Of a stretch of DNA of 64,000 nt, positions 1 through 64,000 are shown piece after piece. Source of the DNA: Boothiomyces macroporosus. Taxonomy: Eukaryota > Chytridiomycota > Chytridiomycetes > Rhizophydiales > Terramycetaceae. Every line of letters starts with the position of its first letter. Position 1 is the first letter of the stretch. Location of the stretch: NCBI GenBank assembly GCA_027604185.1, contig JADGKB010000064.1, positions 1 through 64,000 on the forward strand, written 5' to 3'. A program made the position numbers and the translations under genes. Below the pieces are notes generated by a model. That model saw only the letters and a list, made by a program, of their open reading frames with translations, did no database searches and was not told the DNA's origin.

Positions 1-71
1 CTCCCTCCACCGCGCCACAAACTGGCAATGAAACTAACAATGAGAAACACATCCTGAATGGGTTTTATTTA

Positions 72-2466
72 TTAAAATTTCATGGATGAATTTTTGGTTC
101 TTGAACAGGGTCCTTTACACAATTTGTTTTTGTTTTCATTGTAGTAATTTGGTAGAATTCCTTCATGCAGCTCCTGTAGAGAATCGATAAATTTTGTTTC
201 ATTTCCAGAGTGGCATGTATAGTAACATAAAACAATGGGTTTGATTGTTTTGTAATAGTGGTTTTCAGCCGCCTTTGTTAGTTTGTTCAAGATCAAACGC
301 CCGTTTCCCATGCGCGAAAGTGATTCAAAATCCTCAAGTACAAGTCGAAGTTTCATTGTGGCTACGATTAGTACAGTTTTTACGAGTTAGGTTGTCCTTC
401 GAGTTCATGATTGTAAGTCTGTTGGGAAAGTCCTGATCTCTCCCTGTGTATCTTATTTTTGAATCACCTTCACCAGCCTTCTTACGCAATCGACCAACAC
501 CACTTGATTGCGATACTTCAGGTTGATTTACTGGATTGCTAGTCTCGAGTACTACAGTTTGATTTAATGAATTGGTTATTTGAGGCGGTTGATTAGTAGA
601 TGGTACCAATTCTGTTTCCACGCTCTGTGTTTCGTGTGTTTGCTCTATTGAATTAGCAGTAGGGTACCTGTACGATCCTTATTGAAAGTTGACAAAATCC
701 CCTCACTTCTTGCCAAATTCAGCAATTCCTTTAAATCCTCAAGTGCTTCACTTTGTAGATGGTACTTTTCTCTAAATTTTTCTATAGCTTCGGCGCTGCT
801 GGACTTTGCCTTGAACTTTGTTGCTGCCTGTATCACAGTGAACAAGGAAAGATTTTTTGCGTTAGAACCAAGGCCACATTTCTCTTCCACAAAGTCCTTT
901 GCTACCTAAAATCAAGAGCAAATTACTGTATATAACTCGGTAGGATTTGAGTGCTCTACATAATTGAAATTACTTTGATTGCTGACGAAGCAGGGCTTCC
1001 ATTCTCCTACTAAAGTCTGTGGTTTGGTTGTGCTATAATTGGCCATTGCAAACTGAGTTCTTGCGTCTAGCTCATATTTCACTGCGCTATTAGTATCACT
1101 GTGTCTTGCTGATTGCATTATTCTGGAATAAGCAGCGTTCGAGTTATCCTTTGAACCCCAGATTGCAAACAGATACCCGGTTTTTCTTAAGCAGTGTGTT
1201 CCCCATTTTTTTTTAATCCTACTTTCTTTAATTTTTGTATGGACCACTTTTTTACATAATGAATCAATTTTGTTGTTGAATTTATCGTAAGTTAGAGACG
1301 TGGAGAATACTCCGTCTGGCGGTGGATTTTCGATTTCAGAAATATCGGGAAATAGCGGTCCATCTTTAATTTGCAGATAGTATACGTATACCAAAAGATG
1401 CCTGATTGGACACAGTAAAGTATTGTCGTTGTCTGCCCACAAAAGTAGATGAACAGGTGTTGTGTCGGTTTTACCTTTAACTTTAACCAGTAATCCTTCA
1501 AGCACACCATCCTGGAATATGGAACCTTCCAAATCAATACTGTCAATCGTCAAACCCTGTGTGTTATCTTTGTCACTCCTTATGGCTTCTTCACTTCTCA
1601 GGAACAGTTTAATCGACAGAATCATGAGCACATAAAATTGTAATCCTGGGAGATTGTCGAATAGTAATCTTTCCCTAATCCTCAGTACATACATTGGAGT
1701 TAAAGGAATTGCACCATTCACAGGATTCACACTTTGGACTTTCAATAAATGGTGCTTGTCATCTTTCCAGAACCTCCCTTACATAAGTAATAATTACCTA
1801 GAGATGGGTTTCCTTTTCTTCGCGGCCTTGGATCCCCAACATGTGCATTGCAGGACATGCCGCCCTTTTCATTCACCACTTTAAAACATTCCTCACATTC
1901 CCTGGTGTAGCGGCCATCCTCATCAAATTGTTGATGGATCTTTGTTATTACGGAGTTGAATCGCTTTACATTTGTCTGTGCCTTCCAACCACCTTGGCAG
2001 ATTACTGGACGATTTCCTACATCGACAACGATTTCTCCATAAAAATCTTTCAATACTTTACCCTTGTTGGTTTCATCCTTGAATTTCAAAATGAGGGCCA
2101 AGTCAGAATCACACATGGAGGGAGGATTAAGCGGTGGTTCATCCATCAACATTAAAAGATTTTCGTATCTACCTGTGTTCTTGAAGAAGTACTTCATCAG
2201 TTTAATAGCCCCTTCATCCATGTCTTTTGTGCTTTGTGCACTGCTTGTCTTTGGTACATACTTGGTTGATCGTGTTGGAAATACAAGACCATACTTTTCG
2301 ACTACCTTACCTACCCCAATTTTTGCTAGTTGCTCAATTTCTTTGTCTACAATATACAGCTCCTTTGGCGCTTTTTCTATTTTAAGAATTGCTTACTTTT
2401 TTTTACTACTGCTGCATGTTTTTTGGCATGGTTGACTGGAATTCCTACATTGCCTCTGTTTTTCAT
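72..2466 (-). mobile_element. Crypton-type tyrosine recombinase gene
   Basis: Six exons separated by five introns of 20-23 nt rejoin into one frame of about 762 residues; the ATG is at 2466. The central part is a tyrosine recombinase: an N-terminal SAM-like binding region (about residues 130-220), box I Arg in LFLRSEEAIR, a beta-strand Lys in VKGKTD, the HxxR motif as HCLRKTG, then ARHSD...VKYELDA giving the last His and the nucleophilic Tyr. All catalytic positions are present, so the enzyme may be active. No reverse transcriptase or DDE transposase is visible, which fits a Crypton. The C-terminal third is Pro/Ser/Gln-rich, then basic, and unrecognised. Element termini were not found and may lie left of the window. 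A domesticated recombinase is the alternative. Confidence 0.75.
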
Positions 2467-2610
2467 CTGCTTGCCTCTGGACAAAAAATCCCATTTTAAA
2501 AATTTATTATATATATATATAAAAAATAAACACAGTTACATGGTCCATCTCTTTTGTTGATTCCACGCGATTTCATTGGTGTAGAGAAAATTATTTAGAC
2601 AAAAAATATC

Positions 2611-3961
2611 ATGGCCGTCAACTTGGGGGCACAAGGAATAAGTATACCGGGATTATATCCAGGTAGAGGAAAACCAAGAAAGATTGGACAAGCGGAATCC
2701 TTCATAATGAGCGCACTAGCACCGTCAGGTACAATTTTTTAATTTCAGGTGCTGTGGTATTTACCAATCCGTTTGACACTGCAAAGTAATACTCGCTAAA
2801 GGTAGAGTGCGAATGCAATTACAAGGCCAGAGCCAAAGGAAATATGGAGCACAAGCACCGATATTGTACAAAAATAGTGCAGATGCTATCAGAAAGATTT
2901 ATGTAAATGAAGGCATCCGAGGATTACAAAAAGGGCTTACGCCAGCGATATTGAGAGAAGGAAGTAAAAACTTTTTCAGAATTGTAGCTGATTATTAACG
3001 CAAGGGAATGTATGACCCGATAATGAATATGATTCATGACCCGAAAGATGGAAGGGCGCCAGGCTGGAAGAGAGTTATTGCCGGGTCTTTATCTGGAATG
3101 ATGGGGGCTGTATCTTGCAATCCCTTTGAGCTAGTAAAGACTAGATTGCAGTCTGCAGCTGCTGGGAAATTGGCAGTAGGACATCAATACGGATATACTG
3201 GTGTAACATCTGCGCTGGTATCTATTTACAAGCAAGATGGGCTTTCTGGATTATATCGCGGCAGCTTTTTGAGTATGGGACGATCGTTTGTTGGGAGTGG
3301 AGCAAACTTGTCGTCGTTCTCACTCATGAAAGAATATTTGACGACAGAATTCCATTGGGAAGATGATATTTGGCTAGACATGGTTTGCGGATTAGGTTCG
3401 GGTGTTGTGTCCTGGTACTCTTCTCTAACTTAGCATATTTATGAATCCGATTGACGTAGTGCGAACGAGATATTACAACCAGCCCTATGTTAATGGAAAG
3501 GGAGAGTTATACTCTGGTGCTTTGGATGCCATCACTAAAATCACAACACATGAAGGATTAACAGCATTTTACAAAGGATTTTGGCCCCACTTTTTGCGAA
3601 TTGGTCCACACTTTTGTCGTAAGCTCTGATTGAATATAGTTACATTTGTATTCTTGGGATTACTGAGGAGAAGCACTACGGATGCATACAGCTATCTTGA
3701 CAAACGAGATTCATTCAAAGCGTTTGATATGGACAGTGACGGCTCTCTAAATATAAACGAAATTAAAAATGCCGTACAAACAATCTTTGCCCCAGTGCTC
3801 GACAAGAATTCGGATCAAGTAAAATTAGACTAATCCAGATACCTGTCATGGTGGAAAGAATACTTGCCAAATCTAAAGACAAGGATAGAGTATCTTTCCA
3901 GGAGTACGGAATGATGGAACAAGAGATAAAAGCGATATATAAAGAATTACAAAAAGTTTAA
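2611..3961 (+). CDS. Mitochondrial carrier (Oac1/SLC25A35-like) with C-terminal EF-hands
   Basis: Seven exons with six introns of 19-21 nt give about 409 residues. The three SLC25 repeats are clear: NPFDTAKVRMQLQ, NPFELVKTRLQ and NPIDVVRTRYYNQP each carry the Px[DE]xx[KR]x[RK] signature. The third repeat, with YNQP and a following GKGELYSG..D, is typical of the oxaloacetate/sulfate carrier Oac1 and SLC25A34/35, which sit in the inner mitochondrial membrane. Unusually, about 80 further residues follow the last repeat. They include a good EF-hand (FKAFDMDSDGSLNINEI) and a weaker C-terminal EF-hand-like segment (SKDKDRVSFQEY). Known calcium-regulated carriers have EF-hands at the N terminus. The stop lies 26 bp from the convergent 7TM gene. 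Confidence 0.85.
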
Positions 3962-3987: not shown

Positions 3988-4935
3988 CTATAATTTGATA
4001 CTTTCCCGAAGGGGTTTTGAAACAGTTGAGGGGTTTACCAAAGTGTTCATCGAGTGAGAGGTTCTAAATGAATCAGAGCGCTCTACTGATGGAATGCTAT
4101 TTCTGCTGGGGTTCTTTACAATGACAATGGTTTCTAATGTGGTGATCCACGGTTGAGAGAATTCAAATGGTATAAATTTAACGAATAGTTTAGAGTACCT
4201 TACTCCAAACTTTACAGTCAGAATCGCGCGCAATGCCACTACCAACATCCACGTTGCCGCATCAATACCATGGACAATGCCAAGAAGAGCCAGTATCTTT
4301 ACGCACACGTCAACCAAGGTTAACATCCAAATAAATCTTGAAAACCACACTAGTTTTTTATGGTTTGTCAAAAACAGCTTGTTTGACAGGCATAAATGCT
4401 CCTGGTAGGGTTGAATTTGCCGAGCCATGGTTAAACTTGTTAGTAAAAGTGGTATATCTGTGATAATGGCAAGCAAATGAGTTACCATCTGCGCTGCTAT
4501 TAGGACCACCGTTTCACCATACACTAGTTGAATTTGGTCAGGAGTCTCCAGAGTGATTTCATTTACAAGGTAAAAATAAACTGGGATCATTGTCAACAGC
4601 GGGAAAATGTAGACAATAGTTGCTGGTATATAGTACCAGTAATTTCTTTCCTTGTCAAACCACCTGTCAAAGCTGTTGTGATTAATTCCCACAATACTCC
4701 ATTGAATGGTTGCATAGTACAGAAATATTGCTAGCGACCGAAGGAAAAAATAATTCTGGAATATGCTGACTGGTAGGCTGATTGAGAATATTGTACATAA
4801 AAATAAAATTAGTGTCTGGCGGTGGAACTGGTCAAAGGGGTAGCAATGCAAGCCCTTTTGCGCTAATATTATCAGGGATATAATGAGCATTGCTGCGCAT
4901 GTTGCGGTTGAAATTCCTTGCTCTATTAGCAACAT
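3988..4935 (-). CDS. Seven-transmembrane protein of unknown function
   Basis: A single-exon gene of 315 residues starting at ATG 4935. Roughly seven hydrophobic segments are visible between residues 5 and 255, followed by a Ser/Thr-rich, probably cytoplasmic tail of about 60 residues (RNSIPSVERSDSFRTSHSM). The layout resembles a receptor, but no rhodopsin DRY, cAMP-receptor or glucose-receptor motif stands out. It is not obviously related to the receptor array at 24-37 kb. I do not recognise the family. It ends 26 bp from the convergent carrier gene. Confidence 0.6.
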   Translation of the reverse strand: MLLIEQGISTATCAAMLIISLIILAQKGLHCYPFDQFHRQTLILFLCTIFSISLPVSIFQNYFFLRSLAIFLYYATIQWSIVGINHNSFDRWFDKERNYWYYIPATIVYIFPLLTMIPVYFYLVNEITLETPDQIQLVYGETVVLIAAQMVTHLLAIITDIPLLLTSLTMARQIQPYQEHLCLSNKLFLTNHKKLVWFSRFIWMLTLVDVCVKILALLGIVHGIDAATWMLVVALRAILTVKFGVRYSKLFVKFIPFEFSQPWITTLETIVIVKNPSRNSIPSVERSDSFRTSHSMNTLVNPSTVSKPLRESIKL

Positions 4936-5383: not shown

Positions 5384-7435
5384 ATGGGATTGCTATCGTT
5401 AGGAACGCCTCTAGATTGGCCTGAAGTAAAGCCGCACATCAGTCATGTAAAGAGCCATGGAATCAAGCAGTTTCTGAACATCTGGAACAGGGTAAAGACT
5501 CGTACCAAGGATTATTTATTATGGGGCGAAGAAGTATATCCATCCTGATGTAGGTCGAATACTGTGTCGTCAAATTTGATGATGAAAACAAGACCGCCAA
5601 GCTGTATCTAGATGCAGATGAGGTATTATTCAAGTTGATGGATTTGGAAAAACAATCGCTCTCGCAAGGGTAATTGAAGTTTGATTTAGATTGGTTTTTG
5701 AAAGTTCCTGGAAGCCAGAGTATGCCAGATATATGTTGGAAGGAACTCCAGGATTACCTTATGGAGCAACTTTGAATGATTTGCTGTTGGTAGAGGATAA
5801 TATGAAAAAGAGGTATTTCATTCACTAAACAAGGCGAGTACTTGCCTCTTCGTTCCTTGGAGAAGGAGTTGAAATTTTGTCGTTAACAAACTTTCCAATG
5901 TTGGGAGCTGGGAAATTCTGTGAACCATACTATAGACCAGCCATTGATAGCGGCCCCAGTCGATCGCTTTTTATTCCTGATGAAGCAATCACCAAGCACG
6001 CTCGTTTCCCTACCTTAACGGCAAACATTCGTCAGAGAAGGGGAGAAAAAGTTGCAATCAATCTTCCAATTTTCAAAGATTCCAATACTCCATCTCCATT
6101 TTTGGAGCCTCTTTCATTGAACGTGGTTGATCATTTAAAGGCGAGAGGGGAAAACATCCCTGCTTCATTGCCTGAATATGAAAAGGCTGCATTACCAGAT
6201 CATGTATACATGGACTGTATGTGCTTTGGAATGGGTTGTAGCTGTTTGCAAGTTACGATTCAGGCTTGTAACGTAGAAGCTGGAAGAAGACTTTACGATC
6301 ATTTAGCAGTAATGACTCCAATTCTGTTAGCTTTGTCTGCTTCTGCTCCAATTTTCAGGGGATATCTAACCGATGTAGACTGCAGATGGAATGTTATTGC
6401 AGGGGCTGTAGACGATAGAACCAGAGAGGAACGTGGGCTGGAATCATTACGCGATTCAAAATACAGAATGCCAAAATCAAGATATGAGTCTGTCTCATTA
6501 TACTTGTCTCCTGGACCTAATGTATCTGGCGGTTGTAGAGGAAATGATGATTTTGCTAAACCTCCACCCGGAACTCGACATTTCAAGGAGCAATACAACG
6601 ATTTGGAAACACCATATGATGAAGAAATTTATGAAAAACTCAGGGAAGGAGGTACATTTCGGTTAATAATCAGGGGTTGACAATTTGCTCGCAAAGCATT
6701 ACGCTCACTTATTTATAAGAGATCCATTGGTCGTGTTCAAGGAGTTGCTTGATGTTGATGATAATACTAGTTCTGACCACTTTGAAGTAATTTCATTTTA
6801 AATTAGAATATCCAATCTACAAATTGGCAAACAATGCGTTTTAAACCTCCTGCCCCAGGCTCAGACATTGGTTGGAGAGTCGAATTCAGATCAATGGATA
6901 TTCAATTAACTGACCATGAAAATGCTGCCTATTCTACCTTTATTGTACTACTAGCCAGAGCAATATTGCACTTTGATCTTAATTTCTATATACCTTTAAG
7001 CAAAGTTGATGAAAATATGATCACTGCTCAAAAGAGGAATGCAGCTCTTGATGGAACGTTCTGGTTTAGAAACCAAGTATTTGAAGGTACTCTTTTTCTA
7101 ATTTAGCGGAAGATGACATTTCCAAGGAGTATGGCCGCTATACGTTGGCTGAAATAATGGACGGCACTACATCCAAGGAAGGCGTATGCTCAATTATAGA
7201 TCGCTATCTTGACGAAGTAGACACACCTGGATCTACTAGGCAGATTTTAAAAGATCACGTTAATATCGTAAGAGAAAAGGCAATTGGTAAACGCAAGACT
7301 GGTGCTGCTTGGATCAGAGATTTTGTAACCAATCACCCAGCTTACAAACACGATTCCGTTGTTACACCAGAAATCAATTATGACTTGCTCAAGAAAATCA
7401 AGGAACTAGATTCCAATGAAATGCTTGTTGAATAA
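5384..7435 (+). CDS. GSH1: Glutamate-cysteine ligase catalytic subunit
   Basis: This enzyme makes gamma-glutamylcysteine from Glu, Cys and ATP, the first and limiting step of glutathione synthesis in the cytosol. Seven exons with introns at 5534-5553, 5670-5689, 5813-5833, 6652-6673, 6787-6806 and 7087-7106 give 642 residues, the usual length of the eukaryotic type. The start MGLLSLGTPLDWPEVK and the sequence YLLWGEEVEYCVVKF match the family N terminus and the acidic ATP/Mg site. TNFPMLGAG, the MDCMCFGMGCSCLQVT core and the RYESVSLYLS segment are also characteristic. A basic in-frame extension is possible upstream (from 5013 or 5159). Confidence 0.93.
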
Positions 7436-7746: not shown

Positions 7747-10700
7747 ATGAATTCAGCAGCTGATGGACTACCAGCATTGCCTACATCAAAGCTATCCAAA
7801 CCAGTAAGTGACACTTAATATTAGTCGGAAAGGGTCGACAATTTTGAACGAGAGTTGTTGCAAGTGGAGCGTAAATACAGCGCAAACATCTACGCTATGC
7901 GAATTAGATTGATAGAGTTATTTCAAGATTTTGATCCATTAAGAAGCGGATTGATGAGTAAAACCAGATTTGTCCGGTGTATTTCGGCTTCTTTGGATAG
8001 AGGGTATGGCCACCAGTTGACACCACGAGAGCTTGACATTATTCTACAAGCTTATAGCTCAGAAGACCAAAGAATGATTAGATGGAGAGACTTTGTCAAC
8101 AACATTGATAAAGGTGTATCAAATTTAATATAGTGTTTGGAGCTGGAGTGCCTGATAATATTGACAACTATGTTCGCGACTTGTCTGACCTGACAGTATT
8201 GCCATTCCGCAGACCTTTGAGTCCAAAATCAGAAGTGCAACTTAAAGAAATTATTCAAAAGCTGATTGCTTACAATAAGCATCACGGTGCGGACCCCAAA
8301 TCATGGTTTTGTGATTTTGACAAGAACAGCAAAGGTAAACTCTATTAACGGTAGGTTGGGTCAACTATAATCAATTCAGAAGGGGAATGCCTCAAAATTT
8401 GATTAGCAGTGCGGAAGAAGACTTGCTTTTAGCTAGATACGGCGATCCTCAAACTGGGACTGTCAATTACTTTAAACTCCATACTGACGTAACTCGCAAG
8501 CCTCCAAAGGTTGCTGCCACTGGATCTCATCTGGTAGCAAAGAATAAACCGGATGACTTTACTGACGAACACATCCCAATCGGAACAGAAGAGGTTTTCA
8601 ATACCACACACCACTCCAAATCTCATTTGGTTAGTGCCATTGAAGACCGGATTAAGCAATGTACAATTTGTTAATCATAGATGTATACAGAAACAGAATT
8701 AGATTGATTGAATTCTTTAGAGATTATGATAGACACAACTGCGGGTTAGTGACACAGACTCAAGTAAGAAGCGTTAATATTAGTTTGCTACAGGCATTCG
8801 ATTAGCAAGACTACCAATCGACACTAATGAGGTTGACGTGCTGTTAAAAAGTTATGGGACTCTTGACGGCAGAGCAAATTACAGGAAGCTTTGCGCATCG
8901 ATTGATACAGGTACATTGAATGGTAACAATAGTTTTTACCATCAACAATTTGGAGCAAAATCCTTTGCAAGAAGTGAAACCTCCTTCGAAGGATTGGTTA
9001 ATCCAAAGTTGCAACAGATTGGAGCCACATGAAGAGCAGCAATGTAATCAAATTATTGCTCGTCTACAGACTATAGTCAAAGAAAGAAGAATTTTGATTG
9101 CTCCTCTATTTAAAGATTTCGACCGTTTCTTGGGAAATTTAGGACGAGTTTCCCGGTCTCATTTTAGCCGTTTGCTTGTTATGATGGGTATGAACATTTC
9201 AGACGAGGATTTGCACATTTTGTTTAGAAAATACGAGGACCATGAAGAAGGAAGGATCAACTATCAAGAATTCATCAAACGGATTGACCCAGAAACTTAT
9301 CGAGCATACCATGTAAAGAATGAAGAGCTCGATACCTCCAATAGTGATACCGGTAGAATAAAGTCTGCAAGGAAACGTGAAATACAAGTGGATGATGTTA
9401 TTAAAATGCTGCAAGACCATGTTGTATCAAAAAGAATCCGAATTTCAGAGTTCTTTAGAGATTTTGACAAATTAAGATCATACTCTATCAGAAAAGAAGA
9501 ATTTGTCCGAGGTATTTCAAAAATCGGTTATGATTTGAATGAGACTGAGATGGACACCTTGTGCAACTTTTACAAGGACCCAAAAATCAACGGATATTGC
9601 TTGTGGAAAAGGTTTGCGGATGTTATTGATGAAGGTGTTTTATTCCTAATTTAGTATTTGTTGCTTCAAATTTGGAGTCGAACCCCAGCTACGTGCACAA
9701 CGAACAACCAACTCGCTCTCCTTTCCAGTCGACTGGAGTAAAGCTATCCGCTAGAGAAGAGGAAATTTGCGCCAAAGTGCTTGAAAATATTCGACACCAA
9801 ATGAAATTTAGAAAAGCAAATGTCAAACCATTTTTCCGCGATTGCGACAAAATTTGCAGTGGTATTGGCCATGTCACCAAATCCCAGTTTAGGCAATGTC
9901 TTACTTTTATGGAATGCAATGTAACTGAAGAGGAATTTGAAATTCTGTGCAAAAAGTGGATGAAAATAGGTGCCCACAGCGACTTGAATACTAAAGAATA
10001 CAACTATATCAATGACGTTGGTCAGAATATTTGTTACTTTTTGTTCTTGCAGGAAATTGAAAAGGGACTGGAAACTCAGGAAAAACAATTACAATCAGAA
10101 CCAAAATTGAAAAGAAATCCAAAAGTCAACAATCCTGTGGTATTCAGTCATACTGATTTTGAAAAACTAATGATGAAGATCAGGATGAAGGCAAAGACTG
10201 AGCGAATTAGAGTAATTGACTTTATGTTGGACTTTGATCACTTGAGGCATGGCAAAATATCGAGAAATGAGTTTAGAAGAGCAATCAAAGTTGTTTTTGG
10301 TGACGCTACTGAAGGAGATTTGAAGCTTCTAGAAGACCACTATTCGGACGGCAAAGGCAGCGTTTATTATGTCAAATTTTCTGATGACGTTGAGTCAGTA
10401 TTTACAAAGAAAGGGCTTGAAAAGGATCCAACAAGTCAACCAGAGGTGTTTGACATCTATTCAAACGGCTGGGAAACTGATACTGACGCAAATATCCTTG
10501 CTCCTGAAGATGAAGTTGTACTAAAGGCAGTCATGAAGCGGTTGCGCGATCGGGCTCTGCAGCGAAGAGTAGACGCTTTGGCGTATATGGAAGACTATGA
10601 TTTTGTTAAAGAAGGTATTCATTCGTAATGTTAGGAACAATCACTACTAGTCAGTTTAGATCGGTTTTGAATCAAATGAACCTTGGTGTTTCAGACAAGG

Positions 10701-22080: not shown

Positions 22081-22311
22081 ATGACCCACTGGAAAAAAGC
22101 AGGATTATCGTACAACTCACTAATATAGATACCTTAAATACGCAAACATTGGCGCAAAGACTCTTAGATCCGTATTGACCAAGGAAGCCAAAATTCAAGC
22201 ATTGAAGAGAGAAGAAATCGCACTTCGTTCAGCAATCTGGAAAGATGGAAAGATGGGAGAAGCAGTAAATCCTTGTTTATTTAGGTACCACTCGGAATCC
22301 AAGAAAACTGA
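22081..22311 (+). CDS. ATP15: Mitochondrial ATP synthase F1 epsilon subunit
   Basis: Three tiny exons with introns at 22110-22128 and 22265-22284 give a 63-residue protein. MTHWKKAGLSYLKYANIGAK matches the family start (MSxWRxAGLSY), followed by LRSVLKxE-type basic helices and a short tail ending GEAVPLGIQEN. This subunit is part of the central stalk of F1Fo-ATP synthase in the mitochondrial inner membrane. Gene finders tuned to normal introns would miss it. The stop lies 24 bp from the convergent TOE1 stop. Confidence 0.85.
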
Positions 22312-54991: not shown

Positions 54992-56142
54992 TCATTCAGC
55001 TTGGTCTATTACATCCTGCAAATACATTTCAAAATCCTCTTCGTCTAATTCTTCATATGAATCTATCCTGCTTTGTGTAGATAGTATTTTGATATAATTG
55101 AATGCTGGGGTTAATTCATGGTACCTCCTATTCCAATTAAACTCAATATCAGCCCGAAAATCATATTGGGCGTGAATTTATCTTTGAATATCAAAGCGGA
55201 AACAACCAGAGTCAATATTTCCTAAATTCAGAACAAGCATACTTTGAATATTCCAGCAATTGATAATGTAACTACTGATGTTGTTGAAATTAACGCGAAT
55301 TCGAAATTGACCATTGTAAATGCTATACATCCTCCAAATGATACCACCAGCAATAACCAAATCGAACCAGAGAAGTTAGCGAAATGCGGGTTAGCCAAGA
55401 GGGCAGAAAATCCTTCCAGAGTAACAAAACTGAAAAATAATGATACTGCAATAATTGGAGCAATGAATAAATTAGTTGCGAGTGGATTGTTCATTCCCAT
55501 CTTTTCATTTTCCAGCAATACCTGGGTAATTGCCCATCTGAATCCTGACAAAACTGTGGCAATTTGGATTTGCGCATATCCAAAAGCATCAAATTTTGTT
55601 TCATTCGCAACCATAATTCCAACACCCGCACAAATGATTATTACTGCTATTGTGATTCTCCATGACGGTTTCTCTAATCCAAACAGGAATGCAAATAATA
55701 ATACAAAGACAGGAGCTGATATTAGCTAAACATACCTGCTGACTTCACCATCGTATAAAATGATAGTGAGATAAACTAGGTAAATAGTAAAGTACTTTGA
55801 GTGAAGAGTTGCTCAGTCCAATGTCCAATCCTGTCGATATCCCACACGGAACCACTTTGAGCAAATAATCCCTAGGAGCCGGATACCGCTTGGGTTTGTA
55901 TGCCGGCAGAATCTGAAGCACTAAATAAGAGAGACTTCCTTGCATGATCATATGAACCATAGAGGTAAATAAGGGAAACTGAAAGTTGTCATAAGTCTTT
56001 GAAAATAGCCATTTGTTGTAGACATTAAGAGAAATGGAAGTAGAATACCACCCTGCAATACTCTAATTAATAATAATTACAGGAATAGAACTTTGAACAA
56101 GTGGCTCCGTTTGTGTGGAGTAGAAACCAACGAGGATATCAT
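54992..56142 (-). CDS. SLC35C2-like nucleotide-sugar/triose-phosphate translocator family protein
   Basis: Six exons with five introns of 20-21 nt give 349 residues from ATG 56142; an in-frame ATG at 56196 would add 18. About ten hydrophobic spans are visible. LIAGWYSTSISLNVYNKWLF at the start and FISLSFYTMVKSAAPVFVLLFAFLF with PSWRITIAV are typical of the SLC35C2 group of the TPT/nucleotide-sugar superfamily (Golgi/ER). SGFRWAITQVLLENEK and the later NP..T...AP segment support it. The tail is acidic (SYEELDEEDFEMYLQ). The start is 83 bp from the divergent aldo/keto reductase. Confidence 0.88.
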
Positions 56143-56225: not shown

Positions 56226-57302
56226 ATGTCACGGATGGTGAAGCAGATGCGATCGTTGTCTACCAAGCGACAACTAGGCTTAAACGGCCCATATGTTAGC
56301 GCATTAGGCTTGGGAGTAATGGGAATGTCTGATTTCTATAATCCGAGTGCCCAGAATAGAGATGCGGAGCATATAAAGTTGCTGCATGAAGCAATAGATA
56401 TGGGGTGCACGTTTTGGGATACTGGTAATAGATACTTATTATAGCGGATGTTTATGGACCATATACAAACGAAATACTTATTAGTAAAGTCTTGAAGGAG
56501 CGCAGAAATGAGGTGTTTGTTGGGACAAAGTTTGGATTTGTAAGAAATCCCGATGGATCGTTTGATGGCATTTGTGGTAAGCCTGAATATGTTTTCAAAG
56601 CGTGCGATGCTAGTTTAAAGAGACTGGGAGTTGAAACCATTGATTTGTGTACCTGATTAGTAATCTAGATTATCAGCACAGACCTGATCCTAATGTTCCT
56701 ATTACTGAAACTGTTCAAGCAATGTCAGAGTTGGTTAAGCAAGGAAAGGTTCGGTATTTGGGGCTTTCAGAGTGTTCTGCAGAGCAAATTCGCCTTGCTC
56801 ACAAAGTGCATCCAATATCTGCTTACCAAGCTGAATTCAGTCCTTGGCACACAAAACTAGAATCTGATGGAAGATTAGAAGCTTGTAGGGAACTGGGAAT
56901 TGCAATTGTTCCGTATTCTCCTCTTGGACGCGGATTTCTAACTGGAACCATCAAATCATTCGACGATCTTGACCCAAATGACTGGTAAACGATTCTGATT
57001 ATAGGAGAAGAAAGAATCCTCGATTTCAAAAGGGTGCGTTTGAAAAGAACTTTGAGTTGGTAAAAGCTTTCACACGAATGGCCCAAGCTAAAGGAATCCC
57101 AACTTCGCAATTATGCTTGGCGTGGGTGCTATCCCAAGGCAGTGATTTTATCCCTATTCCAGGGACAAAACGTTCCAAATACTTGAAAGAAAATTGGGGG
57201 AGTTTGCAAGTAGAATTGTCAGATAAGGAAAAGAAGGAATTGCGAAAGATCATCAATGAAATTCCGATTGAAGGAGGGCAATTAAATATCTTGAAGAAAT
57301 AA
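56226..57302 (+). CDS. Aldo/keto reductase (YakC/AKR13-like)
   Basis: Four exons with three 20-nt introns give 338 residues. Seen: [33 protein letters not shown] (Asp, Tyr), VFVGTKFGF (Lys), [14 protein letters not shown] (His), [24 protein letters not shown], and the C-terminal [18 protein letters not shown] cofactor segment. This group reduces aldehydes and ketones such as pyridoxal, or acts in auxin-like resistance; the substrate is not predictable. Two of the catalytic motifs (WDTADVYG, DLYYQH) are created by splicing. Confidence 0.92.
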
Positions 57303-57342: not shown

Positions 57343-58112
57343 ATGGAAGAACTGAAAATAGCAGTTGGAGGAATACCAGTCTCGCTGTATTCAATTCCGC
57401 AAAAACCTGAAGGAAAGAAACCGCTTGGAATATTCTTCTTGCATGGGAGAACTTGGACCAGTGACTCAACCATAAAGAGATGGTACGATTACCTTACTTC
57501 TGTTCTGGAAGCATTCCCGGAAAAGGTGTATTTGATTGCATTTGATCAGCGCAACCATGGGGAAAGGATGGTTAATGAAATACATAACAAGGGAAAGGAT
57601 GAAAACCCAAATCATGCACTTGATATGTTTGCAATTCAGTATGGAACTGCAAAAGACGTTTCATACTTGATTGACTGCCTCCCACTGTTTGTGGATATCC
57701 AAAGATGGTGGGTATTTGGATTTAGCTTGGGAGGTTTGTCAAGTTAACTTTAGGACATGCAACCCTCCTCTCTTTGGTCGTTGAAGATAGATTGGAGTTG
57801 GGAATCAGTATCGTTGGATGCGGAGACTATGCCACATTGATGAAAATGAGAGATTTGCCAGTCTCTCCAGCTTTGGAACGGCTGTTGAATGAACGAGACC
57901 CAATTAACAATATTGGTAAGCTTAAAGGGAGAAATCTGTTGTGCTTGAATGGTGGTGCAGATGACTTGGTCCAAGCAGCTGCCAATAATGAATTTGCGAA
58001 ACATTTGCAAAGCGGCTCATTTAGATATGTTGTTGATCCAGATGCAAAGCATGAACTCAGTGAGTTGATGAAGACTCTTATCAAAGACTATTTCCAATCC
58101 CACTACCAATAA
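57343..58112 (+). CDS. Alpha/beta hydrolase
   Basis: Two exons with one 20-nt intron starting GTTTGT give 249 residues. Oxyanion region LGIFFLHGRTWTSD, a DQRNHGER strand, nucleophile elbow VFGFSLGGHATLLSL (GxSxGG, completed by splicing), acid in LNGGADDLVQAA and the catalytic His in DPDAKHELSELM. Length and motifs fit a small esterase/peptidase-type hydrolase. No signal peptide. It starts 40 bp after the aldo/keto reductase gene. Substrate unknown. Confidence 0.88.
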
Positions 58113-58333: not shown

Positions 58334-59491
58334 ATGTCTTACGAAGGAAATTCGCGATTGAGTTCAGCAAATACAGCAAAAAAACATCCAGCACTTCCAG
58401 GAAAGTTTCCTCAATTAGAAGTAGTGTCTGTTGAAGCGAGATCAATCCATTTAAGATGGTTTATATCCCCATTGTACGAAGAGTTTCTATTCCAAATTAC
58501 TAAAGAGGAACTGGATATTCTAGATTTTGAAACAGTCTATGAAGGCGAAGGTCCAGAATGCGAAATAGGAGGACTAAAACCTCAAACAAAATATCAGTTC
58601 AAGCTACGCTATCAAAGTCCTGCTGATAGGAATATAGGTATATGGGGTTCAGATTACTCTGAAATAAATGTCACTACTCCAGGTTACTTGTTTTTGATGT
58701 AGACGAGAGTGCAGTTGTAAAAGCATCAAACAACTTCATGAGAGCAGTGACTGACAATGAACCAGGAAAAGTAAAGAAAATCCTGGAGGAATTCGGTAAA
58801 CAGATTTCGCTGGAGGCAAGGGACAAAAACGGACGCACATTGCTGATGGTACAGATTGATTGACCAAGATTGCTGCTCAAAATGATTCAGTTGATATTAT
58901 AAAACAACTGTTAAGTGGTGGAGCGGATCCTCACGCATCAACACTTGTTGGAAAGACTGCATTATCATTTGCTATTGCGTACGGAAACAAGGCTGCTTTT
59001 GAAACACTTTTATCATTTGATAAAACCCTATTAGATTGTACAGATTCAACTGGATCCACCCTGTTGATGTGGGCAGCTGAATCTGCACCACAAGCAGCAA
59101 GAAAAGGATCCGCTTCAGATATCATAAAGATTTTACTGTCATACAATGTGGATGTAAATAAGGAAGATTCACGAGGATACACTGCTTTGGATCGTTTGTG
59201 TATGACTTCTGGATCGGCTGAAGCAGCTGTTACACTAATTAAAGCTGGCGCTAGGATTATTCAACACTGCGATAAAAAGCACCCTCTAACATCACTAATG
59301 ACAGCCGCAATGAATGGACATACTGAACTGTGTAAAGAGCTGATTGAAACATTTGGTGTTGATAGATCTGTCAAGTCTGAGGTAACAATTCCCTAACTTT
59401 GAACAGCATCACCGCTCTAGGATATGCTGAAACGGCAGACCATCGAAAAACAATTGCATATTTGAGTGCGCTTGACAAAAAGACTTTTTAA
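58334..59491 (+). CDS. FANK1-like protein: fibronectin III domain plus ankyrin repeats
   Basis: An N-terminal fibronectin type III domain (about residues 33-120: VVSVEARSIHLRWFISPLYE, GGLKPQTKYQFKLRYQSP) is followed by about five ankyrin repeats (DKNGRTLLMIAAQND, VGKTALSFAIAYGNKAAFETLL, RGYTALDRLCMTSGSAEAAVTLIKAGA, HPLTSLMTAAMNGHTELCKEL). This is the order of FANK1, a protein of sperm and ciliated cells. Two 20-nt introns are clear. The last intron (from 59382) is odd: the only AG acceptor, at 59406, puts the final exon out of frame and gives a stop at 59430. The ankyrin-like ending (ITALGYAETADHRKTIAYLS) runs to 59491 in another frame. ACGCGT lies just upstream of the ATG. Confidence 0.8.
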
Positions 59492-59547: not shown

Positions 59548-60950
59548 ATGAACCAAGAGGATTCAAATACTACTATCAATACTGGGATTCCCTATAATAT
59601 GATTTATGATCATGGGTTTCTCAATGGGCAGTTTTCCGATTTGACAGTTCGGGCATTCGACGAAACGTTCTGTTTGCACAGGATTATTCTAATTACAAAC
59701 CAGTATTTCAAGGATATGCTGCTTGGAGACTGGAAAGAGTTTAGCGATAACCAGCTAGAGTTGTACTTTGATGATCAGTTTATCAATTTGGATACGTTCT
59801 CTGTTATATTGGAAAGGTTGGGTTAACTAACAAATTAGAATATATGGAAACTTACATACATTGATTTCAGAGTCAAACGTACTTTCTCTGCTATCTACGG
59901 CTTTCTTTTTCCAAGATGATTTGCTGGTTCAGGAATGCTGTCAATTCATACTAAAGAATATCAACAAAGACAATTTTATCAAATACTTGGAGTTTGCAGA
60001 CAGTCGATGTTTTGGTACTTGCTCTGATGATATTGTAAATGCTTGTCTGGTCTTTCTTTGCCGAACTGGAACAACTCACTTTTATGAGTCAATTTGGCAA
60101 GAAATGGATTTTGGCTATGTTAAACTAGTACTGTCATTAGATTGCTTTTACTCTATGGGTGAATATGATCGATTCACTTTTATTCAAAGGATTCTCGAAT
60201 GTCGGGTGGATCTAGACTCGCTCACTTGCTCAGATACAAATAGCGAGGAAAGCGACGAAGCTACATTGAATTATATGAATGGCTCTTTGGAATCTTGTAT
60301 TTTATTTATGAATATGGACTTTGAAGAACTGCTTTTGGTTGAGGAATCAGGAAAAGTCCCATTGACAACAGTGGAAAGACAAGCATACAGAAACCGCAAA
60401 TTCAAAAACCTGATTTCAAAGCTATCTCTGGATGATGTTAATCTTGCCATTCAAGCCAGTATTTATACTTGACATAGGGACCGAAATACCTGTCAAAGAT
60501 ACGTTGCATATCGATACTCAGAAACCAGTCAAAATAATCGAAATACAGTATTCAAACGATTACCTCTCTTGTCCTCACTTTAGATTCTCTTTTGAGTTTG
60601 ACGTAAAACTAATCCAGAATGGCGGGAAATATGTGTCTACACCGACATACTACTTTGGTTCGTCGTGGCAAAACACTGTTCAACTAAAGAGCTCTAAGCT
60701 GTGCATTTATCTGCAAAGAGTTGCTTCTTCACCGTGGTGCGGAGACGATGATAGCTCGCTCATTGACTGTAGAAAAGCAATTCGAGCGTGGTTCCAACTA
60801 TTTTGCTTTGTTGGAACAAAGTGTTTCCAGTTGGAGAGCAAGCCTGACGAATTCCAAGTCAACCAGTCTTGGGGCTGGACTAGCCTGCAGCTTGGCAACG
60901 AGCTAACAGGCGAAAAGCTGCGATTGGTAACAGTAGTTGGGTTTACATAA
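59548..60950 (+). CDS. BTB/POZ-domain protein
   Basis: Three exons with introns of 22 and 19 nt give 453 residues. The N-terminal BTB fold (about residues 25-125) reads FSDLTVRAFDETFCLHRIIL, ITNQYFKDMLLGDWKEF and a BACK-like continuation (LLSTAFFFQDDLLVQECCQF). This type, LHRIIL...YF..ML.G.W.E, is widespread in fungi. The C-terminal 160 residues are beta-rich (YLSCPHFRFSFEFDVKLIQN, SKLCIYLQRVASSPWC) and may form a partner-binding sandwich. A cullin-3 adaptor role is possible but unproven. Confidence 0.8.
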
Positions 60951-61439: not shown

Positions 61440-62135
61440 TTCAATTCCTCAATACAGGTGACCGGCAATATTCCAATCTGACCCGCCGTCTCATTTTTAC
61501 CCTAATATTAATATAATAAATTGCCTTTGCCCATCCATCGCTAAATAACAAATCCAGAGTGACAATGTCACCCACATTCATTTCAATTTCATCTGGAGCA
61601 GTGGGAGCATAGTCCATCACCACAATATATCTCCTCTCTAGTACTTCGCTAGGCCGATTCTTTCTATGTACAACAAAGCTCTTCTTTTTTCTTTTTACTA
61701 TTAAATAAATAATGATAATCAACAGAATAATGAAAATCAGAACTGAAAATACTATTGCCAGTATGATTCCAGTGCTCATTGCCGAACTGTTTGAATAATC
61801 CGATATTGGCGTAGGCACGCCAGTTTCTGTACTATTTCTCCCAATAACCGTTGAACTTGCACCGGGTGAACTAGTTGTCGTCGTAGATACAGGCGCCGTT
61901 TTAAAACAATTTGAAGCGTATGAAGGGTCGTCAAAGCAAGAGGATAAACATGTATTCTGAATTGTCCAAGAGCCTTTGTAAAGATCAATTTACCATACTG
62001 ACATACCAGAAAATATTTGGAACTGCAAGCAGATTGGTCCCCGGCATCCGCATTGCAACTCGCTCCGAGCTGAGCAGTTTGGTTGACTGCCATTGCTGAC
62101 AGATATTTTAGACTAATGAGAATCAAGGATCTCAT
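61436..62135 (-). CDS. Membrane protein with extracellular Cys-rich domain and cytoplasmic SH3, copy 1
   Basis: Three exons give 218 residues: signal peptide (MRSLILISLKYLSAMAVNQ), a Cys-rich ectodomain (GASCNADAGDQSACSSKYF, CLSSCFDDPSYASNCF), a Ser/Thr-rich stalk, one transmembrane span (GIILAIVFSVLIFIILLIII), a basic stop (KRKKK) and a C-terminal SH3 domain (YIVVMDYAPTAPDEIEMNVG, FSDGWAKGKNETAGQIGILP). The SH3 is completed only by removing a 23-nt GC-AG intron at 61502-61524; this creates DGWAKGKNETAGQIG. The design is common in early-diverging fungi; it may link the wall or surface to actin. Tandem with copy 2. Confidence 0.82.
61502..61524 (-). other. 23-nt GC-AG intron in SH3 gene
   Basis: The donor is GCAATT and the acceptor TTAATATTAG. 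Removing it restores a textbook SH3 ending (WAKGxNxxxxxxGILPVTCIEEL), while read-through gives an unrelated basic tail. Confidence 0.8.
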
Positions 62136-62279: not shown

Positions 62280-62942
62280 CTAAACTACAGATTCCACACA
62301 TGCTACTGGCAGCACTCCTCTCTGCTTCCTTGTCAGATTATGTCCCTAAATTAAATGGAATTACTTTTGCGTATCCATCCGAAAATAATTGCTCAAGGAC
62401 AATCTCATCCCCAATATTCAGCTGGATCTCGTCATCTTGCACCGGTATATAATTTGCTATAACGACATATTTCTTTTGCAGGACATCGCTTATTTGGCTG
62501 TTGCGGACTACATTGAATGTCTTTTGCTTTCTCAAGCAAAGTTTGTAAACTATCAAGACTAGACTGCACACCACAAATATCCCGCCAATTAATATCCATA
62601 ACCACCAATGCTGAAAAAAGTTGGAATTATCTCCAGAAGACGCATCTGATGAACTTGCTGGTGTATCAGAGTTACCAGTTGGGATAGTTGTTGATGTAGT
62701 AGAAGTAGTTGTTAAAGTTTGGTTCACACAGTACATGGAAAATGTAGGGTCTTTAATACATGGCCCAGAACATTGGTTTTGCTTCATCCAGTGTCCTACA
62801 ATTAGTTGAATGTACCAGTTGCGGGGTTGCACTGTAAAAAAGCTGTGTCTAAACAAGCATACTTGTCGCCCGCAGTGCTGTTGCAAGAGCCGCCTATTTG
62901 AATTGATTGAGCTGCTATAAAATTTAGTAGCACCAAAAGCAT
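62280..62942 (-). CDS. Membrane protein with extracellular Cys-rich domain and cytoplasmic SH3, copy 2
   Basis: Three exons with introns of 20 and 19 nt give 207 residues from ATG 62942. Signal peptide (MLLVLLNFIAAQSIQ), ectodomain GGSCNSTAGDKYACLDTAFLQC followed by CSGPCIKDPTFSMYCVNQ, a Thr/Ser stalk, a transmembrane span (WWLWILIGGIFVVCSLVLIVY) and SH3 (YVVIANYIPVQDDEIQLNIG, FSDGYAKGHNLTRKQRGVLP). It has the same plan and Cys spacing as copy 1 but low overall identity, so it is an older tandem duplication. An in-frame extension to 63074 lacks a signal peptide. Confidence 0.8.
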
Positions 62943-63108
62943 GTTTGTCAAATGATAACTTTTTTGAACGGTATAGTGTGGCTGCTGTTCGCATCTTTGG
63001 TGTATCCAATGAAAGAAATCCGATGCATGGATAGCTGAAGATGAAAAGTATAAGCTCCTTTTGAGAAGGTGCATTTATTACATGTTAATTTAATGAGAGA
63101 TCGTGATG

Positions 63109-64000
63109 TTAGTGAATCCTTGGACGGCGTTTGCTTACTCTTTTCGAGCGGTATAAGTGGATGGAGATTTGAAATATCTTGATATTAATAATCCAATCGA
63201 TGAAGCAAACATTACAGGTGTAACAGAAGAGAAATCTTGAACCAATTCTAACGTTAAACCCAATGCAGCCAGTGGGGCTTGCAAGGACACAGCTATAGCT
63301 GATGCTGCTCCCAAGAAAGCACAGGTTTGTACACTGATAGCAGGAAGGAAATAAGCACAAGCTTTTCCCAAGATCCCTCCAACGATTGCACCACATGTAA
63401 AAGTTGGGGTGAATAAACCACCAGGAGTTCCACTCGTTAAACAGAGGAATATTACAAACGGTTTGAGGAAAAACATAGCTGCCAAGAAATCCCAAGAGAC
63501 AGTTTCGGAAAATAGCATTTGGGACAAATTAGATCCGTTTCCAGCTAATTCAGGATATGGTATACACAAACCTCCTAAAATTGTTAGTGCAACCATAGGA
63601 TATAAAGCAATTTGCCAGCTGGCTTTCGGTTTTAATGGGTCCAAGAGCTGAACAGCACGAACATAACCAGTAAATAAAAAGCCATTAGTAATCCCAATTA
63701 AAATTGCAGGTATAATAATATATGGCATTTGAGTTGTCAGAGAAACAGAGTAAGGAACCACCAGATCAAGAAACGTACCAGTAAAGGCAGCTAAACAGCA
63801 CCCAATGATTACAACAATAGAATTCTGTCTGGATAGACTTCCCAACCATATTTCCAATGTCAGCAATGCCCCTCCCAAAGGAACTTGGTAGACAGCCGCA
63901 AAACTACAGCCTGCTCCAATTGCGACAAGTAGGGGTCGGTGATTATCAGATAGAAATTGAAACTTTTGGGAAAAGAATTTGTGCATTTCACTAGCAACTG
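63109..64000 (-). CDS. CLC chloride channel/transporter, 5' end beyond window
   Basis: The C-terminal part of a CLC protein. The frame is open to the right edge, so the N terminus lies outside. Seen: GAGCSFAAVYQVPLGGALLTLE, which carries the gating Glu region, GNGSNLSQMLF, and TSGTPGGLFTPTFTCGAIVG, which holds the GxFxP anion-site motif. Many hydrophobic spans. No CBS domains follow, unlike most eukaryotic CLCs. The unspliced stop is at 63135. A 20-nt GT-AG segment at 63119-63138 would move the end to 63109 (ARKEIH); this cannot be settled here. Confidence 0.88.

Follow-up and report, generated by a model that had tools for sequence, protein, structure and literature searches.

Introns of 18–21 nt are carried by the nucleomorph of Bigelowiella natans. 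Micro-introns have already been described from ciliates (PMC9505925) as well as from mikrocytids and nucleomorphs (PMC10245619), and the excerpts consulted of these papers give 15–16 nt for Stentor coeruleus, 16–17 nt for the parasitic mikrocytids (224 predicted introns in M. mackini) and 18–21 nt for nucleomorphs, which are relict endosymbiont nuclei. Among fungi a mean of 63 bp in Cryptococcus neoformans is termed 'relatively short' in the consulted part of a study of 644 fungal genomes (PMC8476143), which supports the sequence-only reading of the DNA analyzed here in regarding introns of about 20 nt as unusual among fungi. Nucleomorphs and ciliates were the parallels it named. Introns below 30 bp were left out of a survey of more than 3000 eukaryotic genomes, as its consulted section states (PMC10639083), and species like Boothiomyces macroporosus would therefore be missed. 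In the literature searched we found no description of chytrid micro-introns.

We sampled 264 kb of the 15.2-Mb B. macroporosus genome, comprising 20 contigs (C1–C20) and the contig of the window, i.e. the whole stretch of 64,000 nt presented above. The trained gene finder called 395 introns at a density of 1.8 per kb coding, of which 378 have a length of 18–24 nt with a mode of 20, and introns of this size are present on all 21 contigs, in agreement with the earlier claim of a genome-wide occurrence. Nearly the length range of the nucleomorph introns is found here in a fungal genome, and the short length, narrow range and conserved sequence also resemble the mikrocytid introns as far as these are described in the excerpts of PMC10245619. 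The introns are near the smallest known anywhere.

The window contains 43 gene models, 34 of which house 98 model introns. With 95 introns of 18–23 nt, 52 of them exactly 20 nt, the model agrees with the initial count of about 94 introns of 18–25 nt in about 31 genes with a mode of 20, and the short-intron observation is confirmed at the level of sequence. The three longer calls were judged doubtful by eye: the 44-nt call (43869-43912) conceals a 20-nt GC-AG intron restoring 13 residues, the 33-nt call (40338-40370) has an in-frame 21-nt alternative and the 104-nt call (63035-63138) seems to join two separate genes. The list below holds the 95 introns and two corrected calls. Its estimated false rate from a shuffle control is about 7% overall and higher at 21 nt, and at least one micro-intron model, of 28 aa at 4763-4866, looks spurious. 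Gene names lacking a family or structure match were assigned by eye, and lines without a stated basis rest on the trained gene finder; homolog counts refer to the 120 homologs listed.

362..383, minus, 22-nt intron, gene 72-2466
645..667, minus, 23-nt intron, gene 72-2466
906..926, minus, 21-nt intron, gene 72-2466
1778..1797, minus, 20-nt intron, gene 72-2466
2377..2396, minus, 20-nt intron, gene 72-2466
2729..2748, plus, 20-nt intron, mitochondrial carrier
2786..2805, plus, 20-nt intron, mitochondrial carrier
2984..3004, plus, 21-nt intron, mitochondrial carrier
3415..3433, plus, 19-nt intron, mitochondrial carrier
3619..3639, plus, 21-nt intron, mitochondrial carrier
3819..3838, plus, 20-nt intron, mitochondrial carrier
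4793..4812, plus, 20-nt call, 28-aa model, probably false
5534..5553, plus, 20-nt intron, glutamate-cysteine ligase (GCL), ungapped 117/120
5670..5689, plus, 20-nt intron, GCL, variable loop, ungapped 50/120, identical to P0241
5813..5833, plus, 21-nt intron, GCL, ungapped 119/120
6652..6673, plus, 22-nt intron, GCL, ungapped 120/120
6787..6806, plus, 20-nt intron, GCL, ungapped 118/120, 94% identity at junction
7087..7106, plus, 20-nt intron, GCL, variable loop, ungapped 13/120, identical to P0241
7804..7824, plus, 21-nt intron, EF-hand repeat gene, gene finder and family match
8114..8133, plus, 20-nt intron, EF-hand repeat gene
8335..8354, plus, 20-nt intron, EF-hand repeat gene
8661..8680, plus, 20-nt intron, EF-hand repeat gene
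8764..8783, plus, 20-nt intron, EF-hand repeat gene
8911..8932, plus, 22-nt intron, EF-hand repeat gene
9635..9654, plus, 20-nt intron, EF-hand repeat gene
10615..10634, plus, 20-nt intron, EF-hand repeat gene
11500..11519, minus, 20-nt intron, ankyrin-repeat-like gene
12731..12748, plus, 18-nt intron, RhoGEF/PB1-like gene
12932..12952, plus, 21-nt intron, RhoGEF/PB1-like gene
13304..13325, plus, 22-nt intron, RhoGEF/PB1-like gene
13491..13512, plus, 22-nt intron, RhoGEF/PB1-like gene
17167..17186, minus, 20-nt intron, gene 15355-19722
17837..17855, minus, 19-nt intron, gene 15355-19722
20390..20408, plus, 19-nt intron, malate synthase, within MS_N match
21803..21825, plus, 23-nt intron, malate synthase, SKL end rebuilt, within MS_C match
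22110..22128, plus, 19-nt intron, mitochondrial ATP synthase epsilon, within ATP-synt_Eps match
22265..22284, plus, 20-nt intron, mitochondrial ATP synthase epsilon
22587..22607, minus, 21-nt intron, CAF1-family nuclease, gene finder and family match
22684..22703, minus, 20-nt intron, CAF1-family nuclease, CCCH finger rebuilt
22766..22784, minus, 19-nt intron, CAF1-family nuclease
22898..22916, minus, 19-nt intron, CAF1-family nuclease
23146..23164, minus, 19-nt intron, CAF1-family nuclease
25169..25188, plus, 20-nt intron, membrane protein gene, weak
31543..31562, plus, 20-nt call, membrane protein gene, poor branch motif, weak
33120..33139, plus, 20-nt intron, gene 32473-33857
33237..33257, plus, 21-nt intron, gene 32473-33857
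34711..34730, plus, 20-nt intron, gene 33909-35056
37788..37807, plus, 20-nt intron, gene 37487-39095
38773..38792, plus, 20-nt intron, gene 37487-39095
39428..39449, minus, 22-nt intron, cyclase-associated protein, within CAP_C match
39651..39670, minus, 20-nt intron, cyclase-associated protein
39914..39935, minus, 22-nt intron, cyclase-associated protein
40064..40084, minus, 21-nt intron, cyclase-associated protein, within CAP_N match
40350..40370, minus, candidate 21-nt alternative to the 33-nt call, in frame, TACTAAC branch site
40414..40434, minus, 21-nt intron, cyclase-associated protein, within CAP_N match
41454..41474, minus, 21-nt intron, DnaJ-like gene
42811..42833, plus, 23-nt intron, gene 42708-43356
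42905..42924, plus, 20-nt intron, gene 42708-43356
43893..43912, plus, 20-nt GC-AG micro-intron, RidA-like gene, replaces the 44-nt call, by eye
44188..44207, minus, 20-nt intron, coiled-coil gene
44605..44624, minus, 20-nt intron, coiled-coil gene
44991..45010, minus, 20-nt intron, coiled-coil gene
45152..45173, minus, 22-nt intron, coiled-coil gene
45586..45604, minus, 19-nt intron, coiled-coil gene
45947..45966, minus, 20-nt intron, coiled-coil gene
46441..46460, minus, 20-nt intron, coiled-coil gene
47447..47467, plus, 21-nt intron, NEDD8 E1 (UBA3), ungapped vs human UBA3, by eye
47564..47583, plus, 20-nt intron, UBA3, ungapped vs human UBA3, by eye
47954..47973, plus, 20-nt intron, UBA3, ungapped vs human UBA3, by eye
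48357..48377, plus, 21-nt intron, gene 48191-48514
49590..49609, plus, 20-nt intron, CCT-theta, ungapped 112/120
49701..49720, plus, 20-nt intron, CCT-theta, ungapped 117/120
49858..49876, plus, 19-nt intron, CCT-theta, ungapped 120/120
50022..50044, plus, 23-nt intron, CCT-theta, ungapped 113/120, only 27% identity nearby
50128..50147, plus, 20-nt intron, CCT-theta, ungapped 120/120
51012..51031, plus, 20-nt intron, CCT-theta, ungapped 119/120
51581..51598, plus, 18-nt intron, gene 51363-52145
52029..52046, plus, 18-nt intron, gene 51363-52145
52505..52524, minus, 20-nt intron, gene 52148-54235
52636..52654, minus, 19-nt intron, gene 52148-54235
54539..54557, plus, 19-nt intron, gene 54253-54961
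55105..55124, minus, 20-nt intron, TPT-family transporter
55222..55242, minus, 21-nt intron, TPT-family transporter, within TPT match
55716..55735, minus, 20-nt intron, TPT-family transporter, within TPT match
55776..55795, minus, 20-nt intron, TPT-family transporter, within TPT match
56061..56080, minus, 20-nt intron, TPT-family transporter
56425..56444, plus, 20-nt intron, aldo-keto reductase, WDTADVYG rebuilt, matches TFFDTSDIYG of 3uyi
56649..56668, plus, 20-nt intron, aldo-keto reductase, ungapped vs 3uyi, by eye
56985..57004, plus, 20-nt intron, aldo-keto reductase, ungapped vs 3uyi, by eye
57734..57753, plus, 20-nt intron, hydrolase-like gene, GFSLGG in spliced protein
58683..58702, plus, 20-nt intron, gene 58277-59396
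58849..58868, plus, 20-nt intron, gene 58277-59396
60459..60477, plus, 19-nt intron, gene 60104-60950
61974..61993, minus, 20-nt intron, gene 61441-62093
62346..62364, minus, 19-nt intron, gene model 62280-63986
62796..62815, minus, 20-nt intron, gene model 62280-63986
62912..62933, minus, 22-nt intron, gene model 62280-63986

The spliced reading fits known proteins. All six junctions of CCT-theta are ungapped in 112–120 of the 120 homologs listed and four of the six GCL junctions in 117–120 of those listed, while GCL junctions 2 and 6, located in variable loops, reach only 50 and 13 of 120 against 0.81 for random codons; compared to yeast GCL, three of the six lie at or near gaps. The spliced GCL model is identical to the deposited B. 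macroporosus protein over 642/642 residues with all six junctions spanned, and the deposited GCL of Boothiomyces sp. JEL0866 agrees at 93%, these deposited models being predictions themselves. By the full match the DNA belongs to B. macroporosus or to a strain nearly identical with it. By eye, the three junctions each of UBA3 and the aldo-keto reductase are ungapped against solved structures, and the spliced mitochondrial carrier matches Mito_carr with 203.9 bits. As proposed before, splicing restores WDT/ADVYG and GFSLG/G (slash at the junction), the SKL end of malate synthase and the CCCH finger. Retention of the 378 introns would shift the frame in 285 cases and introduce a stop in 63, and the 30 silent ones are the least certain.

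Judging from their signals, the micro-introns look like U2-type introns. A clear branch motif is present in 315 of 379 introns of 17–25 nt (64 are without one), with the branch A at nt 14–16 in 271 and a tail after it of 5–6 nt, AG included, in 252 of the 315. The consulted part of the Stentor work likewise describes tiny GU-AG introns of uniform size, in which the branch site keeps a constant place and is followed by a tail of 5 nt, there with the A at nt 10–11 (PMC9505925). The initial reading had recognized spliceosome-type signals correctly but placed the branch motif 3–6 nt before the AG, and its statement that donor and branch point leave hardly any space between them was too strong, as 13–15 nt precede the branch A. 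By these positions space is tighter downstream, where the 3' splice site follows the branch point by 5–6 nt. For this distance the excerpts of PMC10711555 give a natural minimum of 10 nt in budding yeast, and Debaryomyces hansenii, likewise a fungus with a short distance, has 7–8 nt, whereas in B. macroporosus the whole intron is only about 20 nt long; Prp18, cited there as a proposed ruler, is nevertheless kept.

We consider it very probable that these are genuine U2-type spliceosomal introns, almost all of 19–22 nt, processed by mostly standard machinery, with the eroded Isy1 N-terminus as the only candidate for an accommodation among the components covered. From the sequence we infer excision from RNA, lariat formation and the order of recognition: U1 would pair with a GTAATT-like donor of relaxed sequence, a TTAAT or CTAAY branch site with the A at nt 14–16 would be selected by SF1 and U2, branching would give a lariat loop of 14–16 nt and the exons would be joined at the AG ending 5–6 nt past the branch A. 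Intron identity would then be set by these spacings and not by a long pyrimidine tract, and the length would thereby be locked near 20 nt. This limit is not absolute, as a 46-nt intron in the Isy1 gene also looks real. The combination of tiny introns and machinery that looks mostly ordinary in the parts covered offers a good natural test of the minimum intron size for a normal spliceosome.

The least credible explanation is an artefact, whether from errors in the assembly or from over-fitting of the gene finder. The gene finder does err, as the 28-aa gene and the wrong long introns show, but the peak was already present in the first pass, which had a flat length prior, knew only GT..AG and preceded the training. 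In this comparison, done on 144 kb and then on 264 kb, GT-AG gave 144 calls of 19–22 nt in the 264 kb against 6–15 for six decoy end pairs (18–25 nt: 156 against 22–34), whereas outside 18–25 nt it was no better than the decoys (134 against 185–235), so that flat-pass calls there are mostly noise. Synonymous-shuffled intronless genes yielded 29.0 false introns per run against 395 calls in the actual sequence, about 14 of them at 21 nt (84 called) and 7 at 19, 20 and 22 nt together (274 called), and a motif scan of the window found 25 hits of 20 nt where a Markov sequence predicts 1.15. The agreement of homologs with the junctions also speaks against an artefact. Removal by DNA elimination, translational bypassing or RNA editing appears hardly more credible. 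The ends are GT-AG, with one GC-AG case, the branch motif fits canonical U2, the motif at 19–22 nt is strongly biased to the sense strand within gene spans (262 against 30 antisense) and splicing-factor genes themselves carry introns of the same type.

Whether the preferred reading needs any adaptation at all is evenly balanced, as an ordinary fungal spliceosome might tolerate 20-nt introns that drift or deletion bias has brought to a geometric floor, with the Isy1 divergence unrelated. The recognition sequences of U1 (ATACTTACCTGG) and U2 (GTGTAGTA) and the ACAGAGA box of U6 are canonical, SF1, U2AF65, Prp18 and Yju2 are present and look conserved, as are Slu7 (426 bits to human) and the Cwc25 plug MGGGDLNLKKSWHP, and the 46-nt intron fits as well. 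In the consulted part of the Stentor study U1 and U2 motifs are canonical too, while Slu7 and Prp18 are reported as undetected, the Cwc25 glycine plug as absent and the Isy1 N-terminus as not conserved (PMC9505925); B. macroporosus has Slu7, Prp18 and the plug. The donor +5 G, on the other hand, occurs in only 71/379 introns despite the canonical U1, and the components covered, with Prp8 only in part, are a minority of the spliceosome. The single clear oddity among them is the Isy1 N-terminus, which appears eroded in Boothiomyces, similar to what is reported for Stentor and with the true start uncertain, altered or intermediate in Globomyces and near-canonical in Homolaphlyctis. In yeast this N-terminus engages the branch helix. 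The earlier conclusion that the spliceosome must be adapted thus finds weak support, and the initial interpretation as a whole is partly supported. It could also be possible, with a chance slightly short of even, that the introns go back a long way in Rhizophydiales, or more widely in chytrids, as a trait already silently handled by annotation pipelines, only the description being new. The deposited Boothiomyces GCL proteins, the intermediate Globomyces Isy1 and the length cutoff in the consulted section of PMC10639083 fit this, but intron lengths are not visible in deposited proteins. An unadapted spliceosome and an old trait are each compatible with the explanation we prefer.

We applied a purpose-written codon-level gene finder, in which intron length was left free, to 264 kb consisting of the window, which lies on contig C64, and 20 stretches of 10 kb from contigs C1–C20, corresponding to 1.7% of the source assembly (15.2 Mb, 216 contigs). 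In a flat first pass, using long-ORF codon usage and end dinucleotides only, GT..AG ends gave 290 introns of 12–120 nt, with 156 of them being 18–25 nt and 144 being 19–22 nt long, whereas six decoy end pairs gave 217–257 in all but only 22–34 of 18–25 nt and 6–15 of 19–22 nt. A first run on the window and 8 of the 20 loci had given 77 for GT..AG against 12–19 for the decoys. The excess over the decoys at about 20 nt shows the length peak to be real, and the same comparison indicates that first-pass calls at other lengths are mostly noise. The trained model called 184 genes with 395 introns, of which 378 are 18–24 nt long (18 nt, 8; 19 nt, 74; 20 nt, 168; 21 nt, 84; 22 nt, 32; 23 nt, 11; 24 nt, 1) and 17 have other lengths, and micro-introns are present on all 21 sampled contigs. 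Thus, the sequence-only reading was right in claiming micro-introns with a mode of 20 nt, as the peak is already there in the flat pass and absent with decoys, and in this 1.7% sample the mode lies below the roughly 25 nt that delimit micro-intron genomes. By linear extrapolation the assembly appears to hold some 20,000 such introns.

To measure false calls we stripped the same genes of their introns and shuffled their synonymous codons. Over five runs the gene finder then called 29.0 false introns on average, half of which were 21 nt long, so that about 7% of the calls may be false overall, with 2–3% for the 19-, 20- and 22-nt classes and about 17% for the 21-nt class. Within gene spans the motif at lengths of 19–22 nt was counted 262 times in sense and 30 times in antisense, whereas lengths of 23–39 nt were near-even (142 versus 129), a test that is only partly independent as the spans were supplied by the trained gene finder. 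In the window the 20-nt motif was observed 25 times against 1.15 expected from a Markov control. If retained in the mRNA, 285 of 378 introns would shift the frame, 63 would add a stop and 30 would be silent. Genuinely long introns were considered for three calls in the window and, judged by eye, were rejected: the first call conceals a GC-AG intron of 20 nt, for the second an alternative of 21 nt exists, and the third seemingly bridges two genes. The first of these lies at:

43869-43912, RidA-like gene (named by eye), holding a 20-nt GC-AG micro-intron

Hence the class is not strictly GT-AG.

The anatomy was analyzed for 379 introns of 17–25 nt, which have an AT content of 71%. Donors start with GTA in 341 of them (A at +3), with GTAAGT in 22, and the U1 snRNA (68.8 bits, slightly short of its 69.5-bit cut-off) has a canonical 5' end, yet only 71 of 379 carry G at +5. 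A branch motif, chiefly TTAAT, CTAAT, TTAAC or CTAAC, was found close to the AG in 315 introns, and both U2 copies carry GTGTAGTA. In 271 of these 315 the branch A occupies nt 14–16, and the tail from the branch A to the 3' splice site, AG included, is 5 or 6 nt in 252, so that two near-fixed spacings define the intron length, matching the fixed branch position and short fixed tail expected of a micro-intron genome. Together with the GT-AG excess and the one GC-AG case, the branch motif and its match to U2 argue for U2-type spliceosomal introns that are probably excised from RNA. With the same counting, this distance is 10 nt at its natural minimum in budding yeast and mostly 7–8 nt in Debaryomyces hansenii (PMC10711555), both longer than the tails found here. 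The ciliate Stentor coeruleus, with its branch A described at nt 10–11, has a 5-nt tail (PMC9505925), but here the branch A lies further downstream. Lengths, motifs, spacings and the presence of the factors can be read directly from the DNA. In our view the most likely mode would be intron definition with a spacing rule, in which excision at the RNA level would proceed through a lariat loop of 14–16 nt and exon ligation would take place at an AG 5–6 nt from the branch A.

In homologous proteins we examined whether the junctions are ungapped, with five residues on each side free of gaps. For the six introns of CCT-theta this was the case in 112, 117, 120, 113, 120 and 119 of the best 120 of 6628 homologs, and for the six introns of glutamate-cysteine ligase (GCL) in 117, 50, 119, 120, 118 and 13 of the best 120 of 1889, where the junctions scoring 50 and 13 fall in variable loops and the mean for random codons is 0.81. 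In the best solved-structure alignments, inspected by eye, all three junctions of UBA3 and all three of an aldo-keto reductase are ungapped within five residues, and against yeast GCL three of six junctions are clean and three are at or near alignment gaps. The deposited B. macroporosus GCL (P0241) is identical to the spliced model over 642 of 642 residues and carries all six micro-intron junctions, showing that existing annotation already copes with such introns. Two CCT-theta relatives (P0004 and P0005; 82% and 80%) are encoded on contigs that barely exceed the coding sequence in length (1736 and 1702 nt), which suggests that their sources are assembled transcripts. A scan of viral contigs yielded no DNA of relatives. 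For CCT-theta the identity to a Terramyces sp. JEL0728 cluster reaches 96% and for Isy1 that to Boothiomyces sp. JEL0838 reaches 98%, and judged by its proteins the organism is a chytrid (Rhizophydiales, Terramycetaceae).

We also compiled the splicing machinery of the assembly. There are two U2 snRNA genes (loci L021 and L022; 142.2 and 135.4 bits), which differ chiefly in their 3' half, and U6 snRNA was found as well; the window itself gave zero Rfam matches at gathering score. Among the proteins, SF1, Cwc25 and Isy1 genes were found along with the Prp8 PROCN domain (774.8 bits), U2AF65 (230.7 bits exon-wise against a cut-off of 310.3; spliced, E 1.3e-61 to human U2AF65), Slu7 (154.6 bits; 426 bits when aligned to human SLU7), Prp18 (173.6 bits) and Yju2 (223.4 bits). 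Yju2 starts with MAERKVLNKYIPP, which we take to be near the human Yju2 start. Prp18 keeps its conserved domain, with a stretch reading VGIHERKEQEKL here versus VGIHARSAHSKI in yeast. Seven of these eight proteins, the exception being Yju2, have 18–24-nt introns in their own gene models. Equal-score repeat matches (Cwc25, kinases, RRM genes) occurred on contigs C49/C100 and on C10, C20 and C65, with two identical Cwc25 models, which suggests that the assembly contains duplications or haplotypes that were left unmerged.

A reduced spliceosome as in Stentor would lack detectable Slu7 and Prp18 and the glycine plug of Cwc25, but here both proteins are detected and the plug (MGGGDLNLKKSWHP) is conserved, ruling out such a loss of the plug. 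Slu7 and Prp18 have been reported to be dispensable in yeast at a short branch-to-3'-splice-site distance (PMC10711555), and a loss of either, expected if this distance makes both dispensable, is likewise ruled out by their presence; their retention may be useful for fidelity, for other roles or for introns of greater length such as the 46-nt one in Isy1. The third feature, a non-conserved Isy1 N-terminus, is shared with Stentor as far as the modelled gene start goes. The introns of nucleomorphs belong to a reduced endosymbiont nucleus, whereas here they are found in a 15.2-Mb assembly with chytrid proteins.

Most full-length Isy1 homologs start with MARNEEKAQSMLYRFRE or near it and carry the N-terminal motif MARNEEKAQSMLYRFR or a near form. 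Among the best 120 of 265 matches, 79 have the start form MxRxxEK[AS] and 111 have hxR[FWY] or NKF in the first 45 residues, and by eye many of the remaining ones start at a later residue and might come from truncated models. Boothiomyces sp. JEL0838 Isy1 starts with MAPKTLAQKQEANILKKYDGVDRTRNK, and our model is the same in this part apart from four additional residues at the first junction; the N-terminus is MANNQKEKQKSVVHRFRE in Globomyces sp. JEL0801 and near canonical in Homolaphlyctis. A hidden upstream first exon was rejected, as no canonical one turned up in a motif search of the Isy1 locus L031, including the 1.2 kb that precede the modelled start. The 5' end (L031:1225-1310) allows two readings: a 4-nt exon set between introns of 17 and 20 nt, possibly a tandem or nested micro-intron, or a single 48-nt intron as implied by the deposited protein P0121. 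Further downstream (L031:1761-1806) lies a 46-nt intron with the donor GTAAGT, ungapped within five residues in 11 of 11 aligned homologs at a weakly conserved spot; it fits the homologs, so that longer introns probably persist.

In the C complex of yeast the branch helix interacts with three N-termini, those of Cwc25, Yju2 and Isy1 (PMC8022279), and for the non-conserved Isy1 N-terminus of Stentor the avoidance of a steric clash is conjectured (PMC9505925). The parallel in two lineages is suggestive, albeit for one gene with a tentative start. The claim of the sequence-only reading that the spliceosome must be adapted has little support among the parts examined, where U1/U2 recognition, Slu7, Prp18 and the Cwc25 plug are retained and only this N-terminus stands out, and we consider an adaptation to micro-introns less probable than its opposite. 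Unlikely is the joint reading that in Boothiomyces the active-site clamp of the spliceosome was re-cut for tiny lariats, with the Isy1 N-terminus (MARNEEKAQSMLYRFR-like elsewhere) being dismantled along with intron shrinkage as in Stentor and thus a convergent determinant of minimum size, and with Prp18 being kept without enforcing the 10-nt floor of yeast.

Tiny introns are already known from ciliates, mikrocytids and nucleomorphs; added here is a chytrid fungus in which the splicing of introns of about 20 nt appears to be the rule, and in the literature searched, mostly by title, none were described in chytrids. Within 644 fungal genomes the Cryptococcus introns, with a mean of 63 bp, were termed relatively short, and the remark in the same study that fungi stay short of extremes concerns long introns (PMC8476143). 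A survey of more than 3000 eukaryotic genomes left out introns shorter than 30 bp (PMC10639083), which would make such species invisible to it, and aligners with a larger minimum intron would presumably mis-map their RNA. The chytrid is a distant relative of yeast and its spliceosome is largely standard among the parts checked. If this is true, small introns would be decoupled from the loss of step-two factors, with Isy1 as a testable candidate and Prp18, kept at a 5–6-nt tail, as a paradox.

Other loci in the window include a gene at 72-2466 (-) with five micro-introns and no Pfam match, and a motif in it which we take to resemble a tyrosine recombinase, possibly of a Crypton-type element. 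Between 24339 and 37152 (+) five look-alike multi-pass membrane protein models (24339, 28119, 29536, 31093 and 36256) have few introns and are related by eye; the one tested gave no Pfam match. At 2611-3961 (+) a mitochondrial carrier has behind it a C-terminal part with weak similarity to an EF-hand (25.2 bits, under the Pfam cut-off).
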